Positions 8,633 through 19,289 of a stretch of 20,304 bases of DNA are shown here, piece after piece. Source of the DNA: a virus; the IMG/VR virus record IMGVR_UViG_3300049783_001274, positions 1-20,304 of that record; one strand, written 5' to 3'. The notes beneath the pieces are model-generated. The model was not told where the DNA came from, made no database searches, and saw only the letters and a program-made list of their open reading frames with translations. Position 1 is the stretch's first letter. Each line of letters opens with the position of its first letter. A program made the translations under genes and the position numbers.

Positions 8633-8979
8633 AGATAAGTATTTGGACACGAACAGACGACCTCGGCGACGGTTCATCCACGGTAACCCTGCACGCTACG
8701 GAGTTGGCAGCCCGTAAAGATTTGGACGAAGATGGTTTTGATACAAAGGGACTGATGGAAATGCCTTGCGAGATTGACTGTGTGGAATTTGATATCGGCG
8801 AATGCTCGGTATTAGGAAGCGAGACGGGTGAGTACACTTTTGGTAAGCACACTTTTCTAATCCTAGTAGCAATCCCAGTATTTCTTTGGAAATTTTTTCT
8901 GGCGCAGAGGCAGGCTATCCGTACGGCGAACTCTCTATCATTTGCTATCGTTAACGACATGAAAAGGAAACAAAAATGA
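8629..8979 (+). CDS. Hypothetical protein with C-terminal membrane helix, 116 aa
   Basis: The N-terminal 25 residues (ISIWTRTDDLGDGSSTVTLH) look like a small phage strand-turn-strand module that normally continues as a short soluble protein. Here the second half carries one strong hydrophobic helix at about 75-91 (FLILVAIPVFLWKFFL) and a basic end, giving a C-terminally anchored protein. The join could be a fusion. There are cysteines at 47, 51 and 59. Function unknown. Confidence 0.65.
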   Translation: MKISIWTRTDDLGDGSSTVTLHATELAARKDLDEDGFDTKGLMEMPCEIDCVEFDIGECSVLGSETGEYTFGKHTFLILVAIPVFLWKFFLAQRQAIRTANSLSFAIVNDMKRKQK

Positions 8980-9215
8980 CTGATGATGAAATCCTGAAAG
9001 CAGCTCGTAAAATCCAGATTAGAATTTATAGGGAGGAAAAACTTCACGAAGTAACAGCCGAACGAAAACGCGAAGTAACTCTTACTTTTGAAGCAGTATC
9101 ACCTGCCGCTAGCACAGCTATTAATGCTCGCACGCGACCCTTTCCTGCTGTATCATTTCAGGTTCCGTATGAACTAGCCTGTGCATTTGCCCGCGAAAAT
9201 GAGGAAATTGTTTAA
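8976..9215 (+). CDS. Hypothetical protein, 79 aa
   Basis: ATGA overlap with the upstream gene and TAATG overlap with the Thg1-like gene downstream. The N-terminal half is charged and helical (ILKAARKIQIRIYREEKL); the C-terminal half has F-E-A-V-S-P-A-A-S and F-P-A-V-S-F-Q-V-P-Y elements. No recognised domain. Tight coupling suggests shared timing with Thg1 but proves no shared role. Confidence 0.65.
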   Translation: MTDDEILKAARKIQIRIYREEKLHEVTAERKREVTLTFEAVSPAASTAINARTRPFPAVSFQVPYELACAFARENEEIV

Positions 9216-9985
9216 TGAAAAAGACCGACGAATTTGGCGACAGAATGAAATGGTATGAATCGCAAGGAACATCACCCAAACTTGATGTCTCGTTGCCAAT
9301 CTGTATCCGTATTGATGGTCGCTCGTTTAGTAAATTTACCAAGGGCTGCGAACGGCCTTTTGATTCGCGTATCTCAACTGCGATGCGTGAAACGTGTGCT
9401 TATCTTGTAGAAGAGACTCATGCCAAGGTTGGATATGTCCAATCAGACGAAATCAGTCTAATTCTTTATGCCAACGAGAATGGTTCAATTATCTTCGATG
9501 GTAAGATGCATAAATTGAATAGTGTTCTTGCTTCAATGGCAGCGGTTAAGTTCTATAGCGTTTTTGGCGGAGATAAGTTGCCAGCATTCGATTGTCGATC
9601 ATGGAATGTTCCAACTAAAATGGAAGCATCAAATGCCATTCTTTGGAGAGCACTCGATGCGCGAAAAAACTCCGTGAGCATGGCTTGTAGAGCACACAAT
9701 TCTGCCAAGTCAATGCATAAGAAAAATCGTTTAGATCAAGTTCAGATGCTTGCTGAAAAAGGAATTGACTTCGAAACTGCTTATCCTGATGAAGATAAGT
9801 ACGGCGTATTTTACAAACGAGTTACCGAACCTACATTTATCGAAGATGATATCTGGGACAGAATTCCAAGTAAGAAAAAGCCCGAAAGTAGATATGCCAT
9901 GCGGTCTCGCGTGAAACAAATTCGCATGAAATACTTCGGTGATGTTGCCGATAAAATTGGATTTATTTTTGGAAGGGATGAATAA
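9215..9985 (+). CDS. Thg1-like tRNA(His) guanylyltransferase / 3'-5' polymerase
   Basis: Thg1 family proteins add nucleotides to RNA 5' ends in the 3'-to-5' direction. They add G-1 to tRNA(His) in eukaryotes and do templated 5'-end repair in Thg1-like proteins. Key motifs are present in 256 residues: R-I-D34-G35-R-S-F-S-K-F-T-K with the first metal ligand, V-Q-S-D78-E-I-S-L with the second, then a helix H-K-L-N-S-V-L-A-S-M-A-A-V-K-F. F-D-C-R-S-W-N-V-P and the W-R-A-L-D-A-R-K-N-S region complete the family pattern. The visible catalytic residues are intact. Its gene start overlaps the previous stop (TAATG). With RNA ligase 1 in the same window, a role in tRNA repair or processing is a reasonable inference; the substrate cannot be read from sequence. 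Confidence 0.93.
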   Translation: MKKTDEFGDRMKWYESQGTSPKLDVSLPICIRIDGRSFSKFTKGCERPFDSRISTAMRETCAYLVEETHAKVGYVQSDEISLILYANENGSIIFDGKMHKLNSVLASMAAVKFYSVFGGDKLPAFDCRSWNVPTKMEASNAILWRALDARKNSVSMACRAHNSAKSMHKKNRLDQVQMLAEKGIDFETAYPDEDKYGVFYKRVTEPTFIEDDIWDRIPSKKKPESRYAMRSRVKQIRMKYFGDVADKIGFIFGRDE

Positions 9986-10164
9986 TGGAAATTGAGATAA
10001 TTTGCTCGAATTGTTATTTCTGGCGAAAAGATAGGAATGATGATTACAAGGGCCTATGTCATAGGTATCCTCCAATCCATAAATCGGACAGAGGTTCTGA
10101 TATTTTTCCTTATACTTCACACATTGACTGGTGTGGCGAGTTTAAAGAAAGACATGATAAATAA
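9985..10164 (+). CDS. Small Cys-rich, putative zinc-binding protein, 59 aa
   Basis: The start overlaps the Thg1 stop (TAATG), so the two are coupled. The sequence shows C7-S-N-C10-Y-F-W, then G-L-C25-H-R-Y-P-P and D-W-C50-G-E-F-K. The order CxxC ... CHRYPP ... WCGEF is a pattern I recognise from short uncharacterised proteins in phages and bacteria, and four cysteines (7, 10, 25, 50) plus H26 could bind one zinc. Function unknown. Coupling to Thg1 raises the possibility of a nucleic-acid-binding partner. Confidence 0.78.
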   Translation: MEIEIICSNCYFWRKDRNDDYKGLCHRYPPIHKSDRGSDIFPYTSHIDWCGEFKERHDK

Positions 10165-10205
10165 TAGATAATAGATAAATGGTCATACTCGAGAGAAGGA
10201 CGAAA

Positions 10206-10484
10206 TTGAAATTTACTATAGATAAACGAGATATGCGCCAACCAAATTTATCTGGTGCATTACAGCACGAGCTGAATACCTTGATGGAAGAACACTATCA
10301 GGAAATTATAGGATATTGCCATTTGGTGGATTCTTGGAAGATAGAATGCTCCAAAGGCACTACTCTCGAATGCGTATATCGAGACGGACATGAGTACAAA
10401 TTATGCACGTTTTCACCAGACGGCAAGACAAAAGTCGAATCAGTATATCCTAGATTCGAGCACACAGGATGGGACACTATATGA
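10206..10484 (+). CDS. Hypothetical protein, 92 aa, probable TTG start
   Basis: The first ATG in frame is at 10179 but has no ribosome binding site. GAGAGAAGGA (10191-10200) lies 5 bases before an in-frame TTG at 10206, which gives a typical N-terminus (MKFTIDKRDMRQPN). I therefore prefer TTG. The protein has a helix (ALQHELNTLMEEHYQEI), a Trp/Cys segment and a beta-rich end (TTLECVYRDGHEYKLCTF). Function unknown. ATGA overlap with the glutaredoxin gene. Confidence 0.6.
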   Translation: MKFTIDKRDMRQPNLSGALQHELNTLMEEHYQEIIGYCHLVDSWKIECSKGTTLECVYRDGHEYKLCTFSPDGKTKVESVYPRFEHTGWDTI

Positions 10485-10732
10485 TTAAAATTTACGGCAA
10501 CGAAATGTGCTCTTTCTGCCTAAGGGCAAAGCGACTAGCAGATTCTTATGGTTTAGACTACACCTGGCACGATGTAGATGAACCTGATATTAAAGAGGAA
10601 TTGCTTTCCAAAATCTCATCATATAAAACCATCCCGCAAATTTTCTGGCACGATCGCCACATCGGAGGCTATGAACAATTTGCTTCGGAAATAGAAAATA
10701 CCGCTGGCGGTTTCGGCGACGGTAAGCTATGA
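10481..10732 (+). CDS. Glutaredoxin, 83 aa
   Basis: Small thiol-disulfide oxidoreductase with a thioredoxin fold. It has the strand M-I-K-I-Y-G, active site C10-S-F-C13 (the classical site is CPYC), the cis-proline loop T-I-P-Q (50-53) and the glutathione-binding G-G-Y-E-Q-F (62-67). Length is normal for glutaredoxin. In T4-like phages glutaredoxin supplies electrons to phage ribonucleotide reductase; no reductase lies in this window, so that link is inferred. The ATG at 10481 overlaps the previous stop (ATGA) and is preferred to an upstream ATG at 10469. The C-terminal tail GGFGDGKL is short and Gly-rich. Confidence 0.92.
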   Translation: MIKIYGNEMCSFCLRAKRLADSYGLDYTWHDVDEPDIKEELLSKISSYKTIPQIFWHDRHIGGYEQFASEIENTAGGFGDGKL

Positions 10733-10941
10733 AAGGTCTTAATGTATATGAGGTCGAATGGACCACGGAAAGCGGCGGAAATGTAAGAATGACCGGCGCC
10801 GAGGTAGTAGCCTTGACTGAATATGATGCGATGGAAACAGCCTGGGGCGATTATTACTGTCTCGGACCTGTTACTTGTGAATATTTGAGAGAGCCAACAG
10901 CAGTAGAAATTATACAATGGTTGAAGGATACCGCGACATGA
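10729..10941 (+). CDS. Small hypothetical protein, 70 aa
   Basis: ATGA overlaps on both sides. The N-terminal strand contains Trp (VYEVEWTTESGG), followed by AEVVALTEYDAMETAW, another case of the strand-helix pattern seen in several small proteins here. The C-terminus is a short helix (AVEIIQWLKD). Function unknown. Confidence 0.65.
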   Translation: MKGLNVYEVEWTTESGGNVRMTGAEVVALTEYDAMETAWGDYYCLGPVTCEYLREPTAVEIIQWLKDTAT

Positions 10942-11132
10942 ATGATATCTGCATGACAGTCACTATGACTTTTACTGAAGAGGACATTAACTGCTTTCTG
11001 CATTATGGTGGTACTGATGTCAAAAGCCTGAAACCTGGTGCATTGGAAAAGCTGGCGGCTATTATAGGAAATCGGACTAAAGAACACATGATGGACGAAC
11101 CAGGCTATGTTTTTGACGACTTTATCGCGTAA
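10938..11132 (+). CDS. Small hypothetical protein, 64 aa
   Basis: The ATG at 10938 overlaps the previous stop (ATGA), with AAGGA (10924-10928) 9 bases upstream; an ATG at 10917 is less likely. The sequence is MTVTMTFTEEDINCFLHYGG, then a basic helix LEKLAAIIGNRTKEHM and an acidic end. Function unknown. It ends the P5 unit, followed by the regulatory region of the RuvC-like gene. Confidence 0.65.
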   Translation: MNDICMTVTMTFTEEDINCFLHYGGTDVKSLKPGALEKLAAIIGNRTKEHMMDEPGYVFDDFIA

Positions 11133-11162
11133 TCACAACTTATATCTCGGAAGAAATTAACT

Positions 11163-11170
11163 GATAAATA
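11163..11170 (+). promoter_or_regulatory. T4-type late promoter box, GATAAATA
   Basis: GATAAATA differs from the T4 late consensus TATAAATA only at its first base; relaxed NATAAATA boxes are known in T4-like cyanophages. It lies on the 5' arm of the hairpin at 11166-11199. By T4 geometry the transcript would begin near 11176, inside that arm. Confidence 0.6.
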
Positions 11171-11199
11171 TCTTTATATGAATCAATATAAGGATATTT
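11166..11199 (+). promoter_or_regulatory. RBS-sequestering hairpin ahead of RuvC-like gene
   Basis: Bases 11166-11179 pair with 11186-11199: 14 pairs, one of them U-G (11173/11192), with the 6-base loop GAATCA. The 3' arm contains AAGGA (11190-11194), the ribosome binding site 8 bases before the ATG at 11203. A transcript reading through from upstream would hide the site. One starting at the late box would lack most of the 5' arm and leave it free. Confidence 0.65.
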
Positions 11200-11202
11200 T
11201 CA

Positions 11203-11781
11203 ATGGTTGCTATTATAGCAGGGATAGATTACTCAATGACCAGTCCAGCAATTTGCGTCCATAGCGGCGCAGAATGGTCACTTAAAAATTGCACTTTTCA
11301 CTATATTGTCCACAAAGATAAGCACTTGGTTGTTACAGATCAAGTCAAGGGTTCTCTACATAAAGAATGGAAACAACCAGAGCAAAGATTTGACAACCTT
11401 TCTTCTTGGTCTATTGACATTCTCAATTCCGCAAGCGTCAATGATGTTTGTCTTGAAGGATACGCGTTTGGTGCCAGAGGTCTCGTTTTCCAGATCGGAG
11501 AAAATACTGGCGCATTGAAGCAGAAGATGTTCGAAAAGAATATTCCATTCATCGTGTCTCCGCCCACCGTTATAAAGAAATTTGCAACAGGTAAGGGCAA
11601 TTCCAATAAAGAAAAAATGTGGGACAGTTTCATAGAAGAAACAGGCTTCAATTTATTCAATATATTAGGACAAGAAGAGAAAAAGAATTGGTCTCCCGTA
11701 TCAGATATGGTCGATGCCTATTTCCTTGCAAAATATCTGTTTGAAGAAAAATATGCGGAACAGGTTGACATCACCATGTGA
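11203..11781 (+). CDS. RuvC-like Holliday junction resolvase, 192 aa
   Basis: RNase H-fold endonuclease predicted to cut four-way DNA junctions, clearing branched replicative DNA before packaging. The acidic catalytic set fits RuvC: A-G-I-D9-Y-S on the first strand, C-L-E85-G-Y-A-F-G-A-R-G on the fourth, and D168-M-V-D171-A-Y-F-L-A in the last helix. The segment S-P-P-T-V-I-K-K-F-A-T-G-K-G-N-S-N-K corresponds to the conserved P-x-x-V-K-K-x-x-T-G-x-G-x-A-x-K of RuvC-like proteins. Length is near RuvC (about 170). T4 itself uses the unrelated endonuclease VII (gene 49). The ribosome binding site is buried in a hairpin that overlaps a late promoter box. Promoter P10 lies across the 3' end. Confidence 0.85.
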   Translation: MVAIIAGIDYSMTSPAICVHSGAEWSLKNCTFHYIVHKDKHLVVTDQVKGSLHKEWKQPEQRFDNLSSWSIDILNSASVNDVCLEGYAFGARGLVFQIGENTGALKQKMFEKNIPFIVSPPTVIKKFATGKGNSNKEKMWDSFIEETGFNLFNILGQEEKKNWSPVSDMVDAYFLAKYLFEEKYAEQVDITM

Positions 11782-11793
11782 TTAGTATATATT
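11765..11793 (+). promoter_or_regulatory. Early-type sigma70 promoter P10
   Basis: TTGACA (11765-11770), 12 bases, TAG (11783-11785), TATATATT (11786-11793). Same geometry as the other promoters, with TAG in place of TGG. The -35 lies in the last codons of the RuvC-like gene. It serves 11821 to 12684. Confidence 0.78.
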
Positions 11794-11820
11794 AATCTTA
11801 TAACCAACGAGGATTATAAG

Positions 11821-12129
11821 ATGACCTATAAAGTAACCTTCCGAGACGGCACTGAATCAGTAATGGAAACGCAAGAATTTACAGATTATGTCATTGCGAA
11901 TACAAACCCACTACCACTTGTAGCAGTAAATGTTCTAACAGACGAAGTGGCGTATCAATTTTCTAAAATCTCGCCACCAACTTTTTGGCAGGAAATTAAA
12001 GAATCCTTCCAAGTTCCTGTAAAGCTTTATCTCGCCTATTTGCTCGCTCGTGCATTCTTTACATTGAACCGCCAAAAACGAGACAAAATAATGGACGAGT
12101 ACGCCGGCATCACGCTTAGCATATTTTAA
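11821..12129 (+). CDS. Hypothetical protein, 102 aa
   Basis: GAGG (11809-11812) precedes the ATG by about 8 bases. The N-terminal half is a small beta domain (YKVTFRDGTESVME, LVAVNVLTDEVAYQF). The second half is helical, with an amphipathic or weakly hydrophobic stretch VPVKLYLAYLLARAFFTL followed by NRQKRDK. It could be membrane-associated, but the segment is only moderately hydrophobic. Function unknown. Confidence 0.65.
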   Translation: MTYKVTFRDGTESVMETQEFTDYVIANTNPLPLVAVNVLTDEVAYQFSKISPPTFWQEIKESFQVPVKLYLAYLLARAFFTLNRQKRDKIMDEYAGITLSIF

Positions 12130-12140
12130 AAGGAAATTTG

Positions 12141-12485
12141 ATGATGGATCATATTAATTACTACGACGATGACGCAAAGCGCTGTAGTTTTGTCTGGTGT
12201 GTTTATAATACAATCGAGGTCGAATATCCCAATATCATCGAAGCGGGATTTACCACCGAAAAACTTTCAAAAATTGTCGGTAAGGACTTCGACGAAGATT
12301 GTCTTAATTATCTGCATGATTCTAACGGAGTAATTGAGAATGCAGATTTGCTATATAGTGTTCTTACCACAGTATCAAATTATTACATCGGCGAGGATTG
12401 GTATGTTCGACACGGAGATCGTGCCGCGATGGACCTTTTCGGCTCCAAACTTCTCACTGCAATAGAAAGTGAAACAGATGACTGA
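12141..12485 (+). CDS. Hypothetical acidic protein, 114 aa
   Basis: AAAAGGA lies 6 bases before the ATG at 12141; a TTG one codon earlier is less likely. The protein is acidic and aromatic (MMDHINYYDDDAKR) with a helical middle and a second aromatic block SNYYIGEDWYVRHGD. Two early cysteines flank F-V-W. No recognised family. It overlaps the next gene by 8 bases. Confidence 0.68.
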   Translation: MMDHINYYDDDAKRCSFVWCVYNTIEVEYPNIIEAGFTTEKLSKIVGKDFDEDCLNYLHDSNGVIENADLLYSVLTTVSNYYIGEDWYVRHGDRAAMDLFGSKLLTAIESETDD

Positions 12486-14216: not shown

Positions 14217-14224
14217 AATAAATA
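14217..14224 (+). promoter_or_regulatory. Possible late promoter box, AATAAATA
   Basis: One base away from T4 late TATAAATA and fitting the relaxed NATAAATA form. By T4 geometry the start would be near 14230, just before AAAGGA (14234-14239). AT-rich surroundings make chance occurrence possible. Confidence 0.4.
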
Positions 14225-14247
14225 TAATAAATTAAAGGAACATGATA

Positions 14248-19022: not shown

Positions 19023-19030
19023 TATAAATA
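19023..19030 (+). promoter_or_regulatory. T4-type late promoter, exact TATAAATA
   Basis: A perfect match to the T4 late -10 element recognised by gp55-containing RNA polymerase. By T4 geometry transcription would start near 19036, just before GGAG (19044-19047) and the ATG at 19053. It lies directly after the stop of the HAD gene and heads a block leading into PhoH and the PAAR gene. Confidence 0.8.
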
Positions 19031-19052
19031 TAGATATAGGAATGGAGAATAA

Positions 19053-19289
19053 ATGCCAATATACAGTATCAAAGATACAACTAATGATAAAATATTTGAG
19101 GTGAATGTTAAATTTGCCGAATTGGATGATTACCTATCCGCAAACCCCACACACAAACAAGTTTTTAACAAATTCCCTGGAGTGTCCGATCCCACTCGTA
19201 TTGGAAAGAAAAAGCCAGACGATGGCTTTAGAGACGTGCTTAGAGAAGTACAGAACCATCACAAACGCGATAATATAAACACTTGGTGA
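19053..19289 (+). CDS. FmdB-like small conserved protein, 78 aa
   Basis: The N-terminus MPIYSIKDTTNDKIFEV has the strand-turn-strand form of the FmdB family, but the Cys pairs of the usual zinc ribbon are absent. The body L-D-D-Y-L-S-A-N-P-T-H-K-Q and G-V-S-D-P-T-R-I-G-K-K-K-P-D-D-G-F-R-D-V-L closely follows a protein I know from T4-like cyanophages next to late genes. Function unknown. GGAG is 5 bases before the ATG, and an exact late promoter lies upstream. Confidence 0.8.
   Translation: MPIYSIKDTTNDKIFEVNVKFAELDDYLSANPTHKQVFNKFPGVSDPTRIGKKKPDDGFRDVLREVQNHHKRDNINTW

Follow-up and report, generated by a model that had tools for sequence, protein, structure and literature searches.

Late promoters within ribosome binding site hairpins

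A switch combining a late promoter with a hairpin over the ribosome binding site (RBS) has been described for T4 genes e, soc, 49, I-TevI and segB and for Aeh1 mobE (PMC3014915, PMC2988022). For instance, the early read-through RNA of gene e (lysozyme) is folded and poorly translated, and its late RNA is devoid of the 5' strand of the hairpin (PMC3014915), as in the model that we propose here for a RuvC-like resolvase gene; however, e is a lysis gene that has neither sequence nor function in common with this resolvase gene. Likewise, I-TevI/II/III, segB and Aeh1 mobE have a late (or middle) promoter inside or beside a hairpin that sequesters the RBS, but they encode homing endonucleases of mobile elements (PMC2988022). 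I-TevI also autorepresses its own late promoter (PMC2988022).

Gene 49 is among the T4 messages inhibited by structure (PMC3014915). In its leader (AATAAATACCCTTATCTATTTAAGGTAAGGGTTTATTATG), the late box AATAAATA runs into the 5' arm of a stem that covers the Shine-Dalgarno sequence (SD), and its product has the same junction-resolution job as the RuvC-like protein, but is endonuclease VII, an enzyme of unrelated fold. Reportedly, Barth et al. dealt with this gene in 1988. Of eight further endonuclease VII leaders, all from Straboviridae-type phages, seven also combine a TAAATA box with a stem that hides the SD or the start codon; the start codon is the hidden element in phiAS4 and SW69-9, where the SD loop is left free. 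The eighth (ValKK3) has neither box nor stem, and its upstream gene lies on the opposite strand. The arms of the Proteus phage Pm5461 endonuclease VII leader (CCTCTATA/TATAGAGG) are common to RuvC leaders. All 12 records tested encode either phrog_423 (endonuclease VII) or phrog_159 (RuvC-like), never both; a search of related phrog_159 genomes returned no phrog_423 and detected that of T4.

The resolvase gene and its leader

The window, i.e., the whole 20,304-nucleotide stretch of viral DNA analysed here, carries on its + strand a gene (11203-11781) for a protein of 192 aa that matches phrog_159 (E=1.9e-29). D9, E85, D168 and D171 are identical in all four proteins of alignment A1 and occupy the places expected from RuvC enzymology for the D-E-D-D site. 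Furthermore, a family profile (A2, seven members, relatives included and window protein left out) finds the RuvC crystal structure 7w8d at E=1.1e-4. The profile match and the acidic residues identify a RuvC-like Holliday junction resolvase, predicted to cut four-way junctions. A search for endonuclease VII (phrog_423) gave no match for this protein, which matched just phrog_159 and, weakly, phrog_18320; its closest relative from an isolate (47%) is that of Stenotrophomonas phage DLP6. The neighbourhood, including T4-type RNase H, PhoH, RNA ligase, DUF6433 and a glutaredoxin gene located two genes upstream of ruvC (10469-10732, + strand), is that of a T4-superfamily phage. Thioredoxin/nrd genes are also found near T4-type endonuclease VII genes. 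A homologue of the tRNA-His guanylyltransferase Thg1 is encoded at 9215-9985 (Pfam 3.5e-26, phrog_4717 1.1e-67).

The late-type promoter box of the leader, GATAAATA (11163-11170, + strand like all the following elements), has a G at position 1 of the T4 late promoter consensus, which is TATAAATA; we counted this against a switch. The 5' arm of the hairpin (11166-11179) begins within the box and is followed by a GAAUCA hexaloop (11180-11185; GAAUUA in L001/L008, a relative with 100% protein identity) and by the 3' arm (11186-11199). The arms form 14 consecutive pairs, one of them U-G, and the SD AAGGA (11190-11194), located 8 nt 5' of the ATG at 11203, lies within the 3' arm. This anatomy had been given in the initial annotation, whose coordinates proved exact. 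In T4, late transcripts start about 6 nt after the box. By this geometry, the candidate start would be 11176, the sixth base past a box that overlaps the 5' arm, and transcription from it would remove this arm.

The isolated RNA from box to AUG has a computed folding energy of -13.4 kcal/mol, versus -1.2 for an RNA starting at 11176. With starts no later than 11160, opening the SD would cost 10.5-11.3 kcal/mol, falling to 2.6 for a start at 11175 and 1.8 for one at 11176; for T4 gene 49, the computed costs are 9.1 versus 1.6 kcal/mol. The folding of long and short leaders that the initial annotation had proposed thus predicts an SD closed on the long RNA and open on the late-start RNA. The opening cost of 10.5 kcal/mol and the covariation described below point to an SD that read-through RNA sequesters in a stable stem.

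The window sequence could by itself owe this arrangement to chance, its significance being weak. The 111-nt fold has a z-score of only -1.5, two 14-bp stems were found in the 20-kb window versus 0.35 expected from shuffled sequences, and the TAAATA core is not above chance (13 seen versus 20.7 expected). The second inverted repeat of 14 pairs (10009-10045, loop of 9, G-U allowed) is located near the start of a 59-aa ORF (9985-10164). Our verdict of more than chance comes from the relatives, since they have the same box and an SD-covering stem written in different letters.

Conservation and covariation of the hairpin

A megablast search of the phage collection with this region returned no match, so relatives were gathered by protein searches, and the leaders of 111 distinct proteins from IMG/VR scans and selected phage records were compared. 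Taking stem scores of 6 or more, and with L111 and L114, missed by the SD list, assigned by eye, the box and an SD-covering stem were found in 50 of the 53 distinct uncultured T4-superfamily resolvases of the window's clade (protein tree, support 99) and in 8/8 rows of the Vi01-like Ackermannviridae clade; the three remaining members of the former have the box and a weak stem. In nearly every leader of the window's clade, TAAATA precedes an arm, a loop, an SD-bearing arm and the start codon, the letters differing from one leader to the next, for instance AATAAATACCTCTATAGAAAATGTAGAGGTATTTTATG (L080), GAATAAATAGTTCCAAAAGGAGCTATTTTATG (L017) and CATAAATACTCCGAAAAGGAGTGTTTAAATG (L070). Arms, loops and neighbour genes vary among relatives.

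The ruvC leaders of Ackermannviridae (Vi01, Magnus, phiD3, 3M; TAAATACCCATAAC...GTTATGGGTATTT) resemble that of the window in having a phrog_159 gene, a TAAATA box and a stem of 13-15 bp in the SD region, but they belong to a distant clade, their stem extends further and their SD is weak. In Vi01 (Vi01_072c; L090, position 2980) and phiD3 (HQ80_0054; L092, position 1980), the ruvC ATG as annotated is part of the hairpin's 3' arm; the in-frame ATG located 12 nt downstream, as annotated in Klebsiella phage Magnus, is the likelier start. In the ViI-like genome papers PMC3184105 and PMC3121705, no description of such a switch on ruvC was found. None was found for RuvC-type genes in the open-licence literature, a scope that falls short of proving absence.

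Several observations were counted against the switch. The closest non-identical relatives (L003 and L009/L005, 69% identity) keep the box and have lost the SD-covering stem, with SD opening costs of 1.9 and 2.2 kcal/mol, and the stems of L031, L034 and L042 are weak. In addition, box and stem are both absent from 35 distinct rows of the wider family, and many of these distant members look translationally coupled to the upstream gene.

Other arrangements were also encountered. In L136, L173, L178, L188, L189 and L190, only 4-5 nt separate the end of TAAATA from the ruvC start codon and the SD is unrecognisable; by T4 geometry, their late RNA would begin at the start codon or beside it and thus have no leader, which may be a further way of restricting expression to late infection. 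SD-covering stems without TAAATA are found in L095 (1927-1975, GR28A), L007 (7990-8006, DLP6), L121 and L055, where TACATA, TAGGTA or TATAGCTA occupies the position of the box; these variants are perhaps diverged late promoters.

The stem is specific to the resolvase gene. A stem score of at least 8 over the SD was reached by 20 of 29 non-redundant box-bearing ruvC leaders, versus 0/48 genuine controls, i.e., other late-box genes from the same contigs. A 49th control leader scored strongly and was discounted, being the antisense of L015's own ruvC leader; even with it included, ruvC and control stems differ (Mann-Whitney p about 1e-10). Moreover, the median predicted cost of opening the SD of ruvC leaders is 8.1 kcal/mol on RNAs starting upstream versus 1.4 on those starting 6 nt past the box (1.7 and 1.3 kcal/mol, respectively, for control genes).

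An alignment of the leader in related phages, also suggested in the initial annotation, revealed compensatory base changes between the arms. A whole-leader MAFFT alignment misplaced the arms, which were registered by their own stems instead. In this register, 71 cells carry a change in each arm, versus 16.9 +/- 5.4 after shuffling (0/500) and 9-23 when slid; the count ignores shared ancestry and is biased towards structure by the stem-set register. A check is provided by swapping arms between phages, which scores each pair anew and also ignores shared ancestry: pairing falls from 9.1 to 6.8, 0/20,000 permutations reach the cognate value, and swapping still lowers pairing from 5.9 to 4.7 when the box is masked.

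The inverted repeat might alternatively work as DNA, forming a cruciform to which the resolvase would bind, or which it would cut, to autoregulate its own promoter. Four-way junctions are the substrate of the enzyme family, a promoter overlaps the repeat and I-TevI offers a precedent for autorepression at a late promoter (PMC2988022), but a cruciform would suffer equally from both kinds of mismatch. Outside the box, 29 U-G cells were seen versus 44.5 expected under swapping, and only 3 C-A cells versus 21.8. C-A cells correspond to wobble pairs on the opposite strand only. This asymmetry points to the sense RNA as the selected molecule, rather than a DNA cruciform or an antisense RNA, because U-G is tolerated and C-A depleted. 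The SD is, besides, always under the 3' arm, and the same plan is found on the unrelated endonuclease VII genes and on T4 gene e; hence, we consider regulation by a cruciform very unlikely.

Late transcription and predicted read-through

Homologues of gp55 (phrog_234), gp33 (phrog_254) and gp23 are encoded by large related contigs; no gp55 was seen within the 20-kb window contig, so that late transcription of the T4 type is attested via these related contigs. In seven related contigs, a TAAATA box is located just 5' of the gp23 SD. In the window, TAAATA also stands ahead of an SD and a start codon, with no strong stem, at 14219-14242 and 19025-19053, which are candidate ordinary late genes.

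Upstream genes are usually co-oriented and without terminator. Among the 36 relatives in which the distance could be measured, 32 have a co-oriented ORF, from varied genes, that stops no more than about 12 nt from the box; in the window, the upstream ORF (10917-11132, + strand), which encodes 71 aa of unknown function, stops 32 nt before the box. In most relatives, the stop is so near the box that the terminating ribosome could partly melt the stem, which we counted against the switch. No terminator-like element was found within 150 nt upstream of the 54 box-plus-hairpin leaders, and 7 of 51 leaders of other classes have one. Intrinsic terminators directly 5' of ruvC (L088, L089, L096, L097, L171, L179, L187 and L007) are confined to leaders lacking the box-plus-hairpin, as if terminator insulation replaced it. 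In DLP6, a terminator immediately precedes ruvC (PMC5349666).

Leader stem-loops can in general act as transcription attenuators or RNase processing sites. For this one, either role seems extremely improbable: no U-run follows the stem (AUUUUC AUG), a tool scan of window positions 8900-12200 found no terminator on the + strand, at the leader included, and the register of the stem is tied to the SD and not to a cleavage motif. The stem might also lower translation at all times, with an incidental box or a weak promoter and no temporal switch. Such constant damping would fit the unenriched TAAATA of the window and the relatives in which the box accompanies a weak stem. However, in essentially all relatives with a stem, the 5' arm has the box at its base, and the complement of the box follows the SD, and gp23 of the same phages has the same box. 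Moreover, the missing stem of ValKK3, whose upstream gene is on the other strand, and the confinement of upstream terminators to leaders without the box-plus-hairpin are as read-through predicts. Constant damping is therefore unlikely.

The proposal of the initial annotation, that a late promoter overlaps an RBS-hiding hairpin on a RuvC-like resolvase gene, is supported by conservation, compensatory change, gene specificity, predicted opening, the gp55/gp33 homologues and the read-through context. We consider that the leader is a promoter-embedded late-promoter/RBS-hairpin switch of the T4 type, with a probability of roughly 0.85. RNA reading through from upstream early or middle genes, for which the 71-aa ORF would be the source in the window, would carry both arms, and its stem would hide the SD and lead to poor translation of the resolvase. 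Late in infection, a gp55-type sigma factor would direct a start about 6 nt past GATAAATA, inside the 5' arm; the resulting RNA would lack about 10 of the 14 bases of this arm, its SD would be free and the resolvase would be made. The likely purpose would be to limit junction cleavage for as long as branched DNA is required by recombination-dependent replication, then to supply resolvase for debranching at packaging. We infer the actual start site, the early read-through, the timing of the protein and this purpose; cleavage would likewise presumably be off until packaging, as the initial annotation had it.

A proposed timing device of junction resolvases

These data suggest that a known T4 mechanism is, on good comparative evidence, present at a previously unreported site, a resolvase of another fold. 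The initial annotation had proposed an independent origin; the leaders of endonuclease VII and RuvC genes resemble each other so much in plan that the leader may also have been retained while the enzyme was swapped. Look-alike leaders would be expected anyway, because the late box and the complement of the SD constrain any leader of this kind. The T4 timing device would extend to uncultured T4-superfamily phages and to Ackermannviridae, for neither of which was an earlier report found. That two unrelated enzymes with one job have the same switch implies a cost of early junction cleavage for these phages. Late-only translation may be a conserved requirement of the junction-resolvase slot of the wider T4 superfamily, whether filled by endonuclease VII or by a RuvC-fold enzyme, the switch being present wherever read-through would cause early expression and the leader being re-evolved or retained across enzyme exchange; we would give this broader proposal even odds. 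Why T4 delays endonuclease VII is an old question that can now be tested in cultured Ackermannviridae. Furthermore, the box-plus-stem signature would predict the late timing of genes in uncultured phages.
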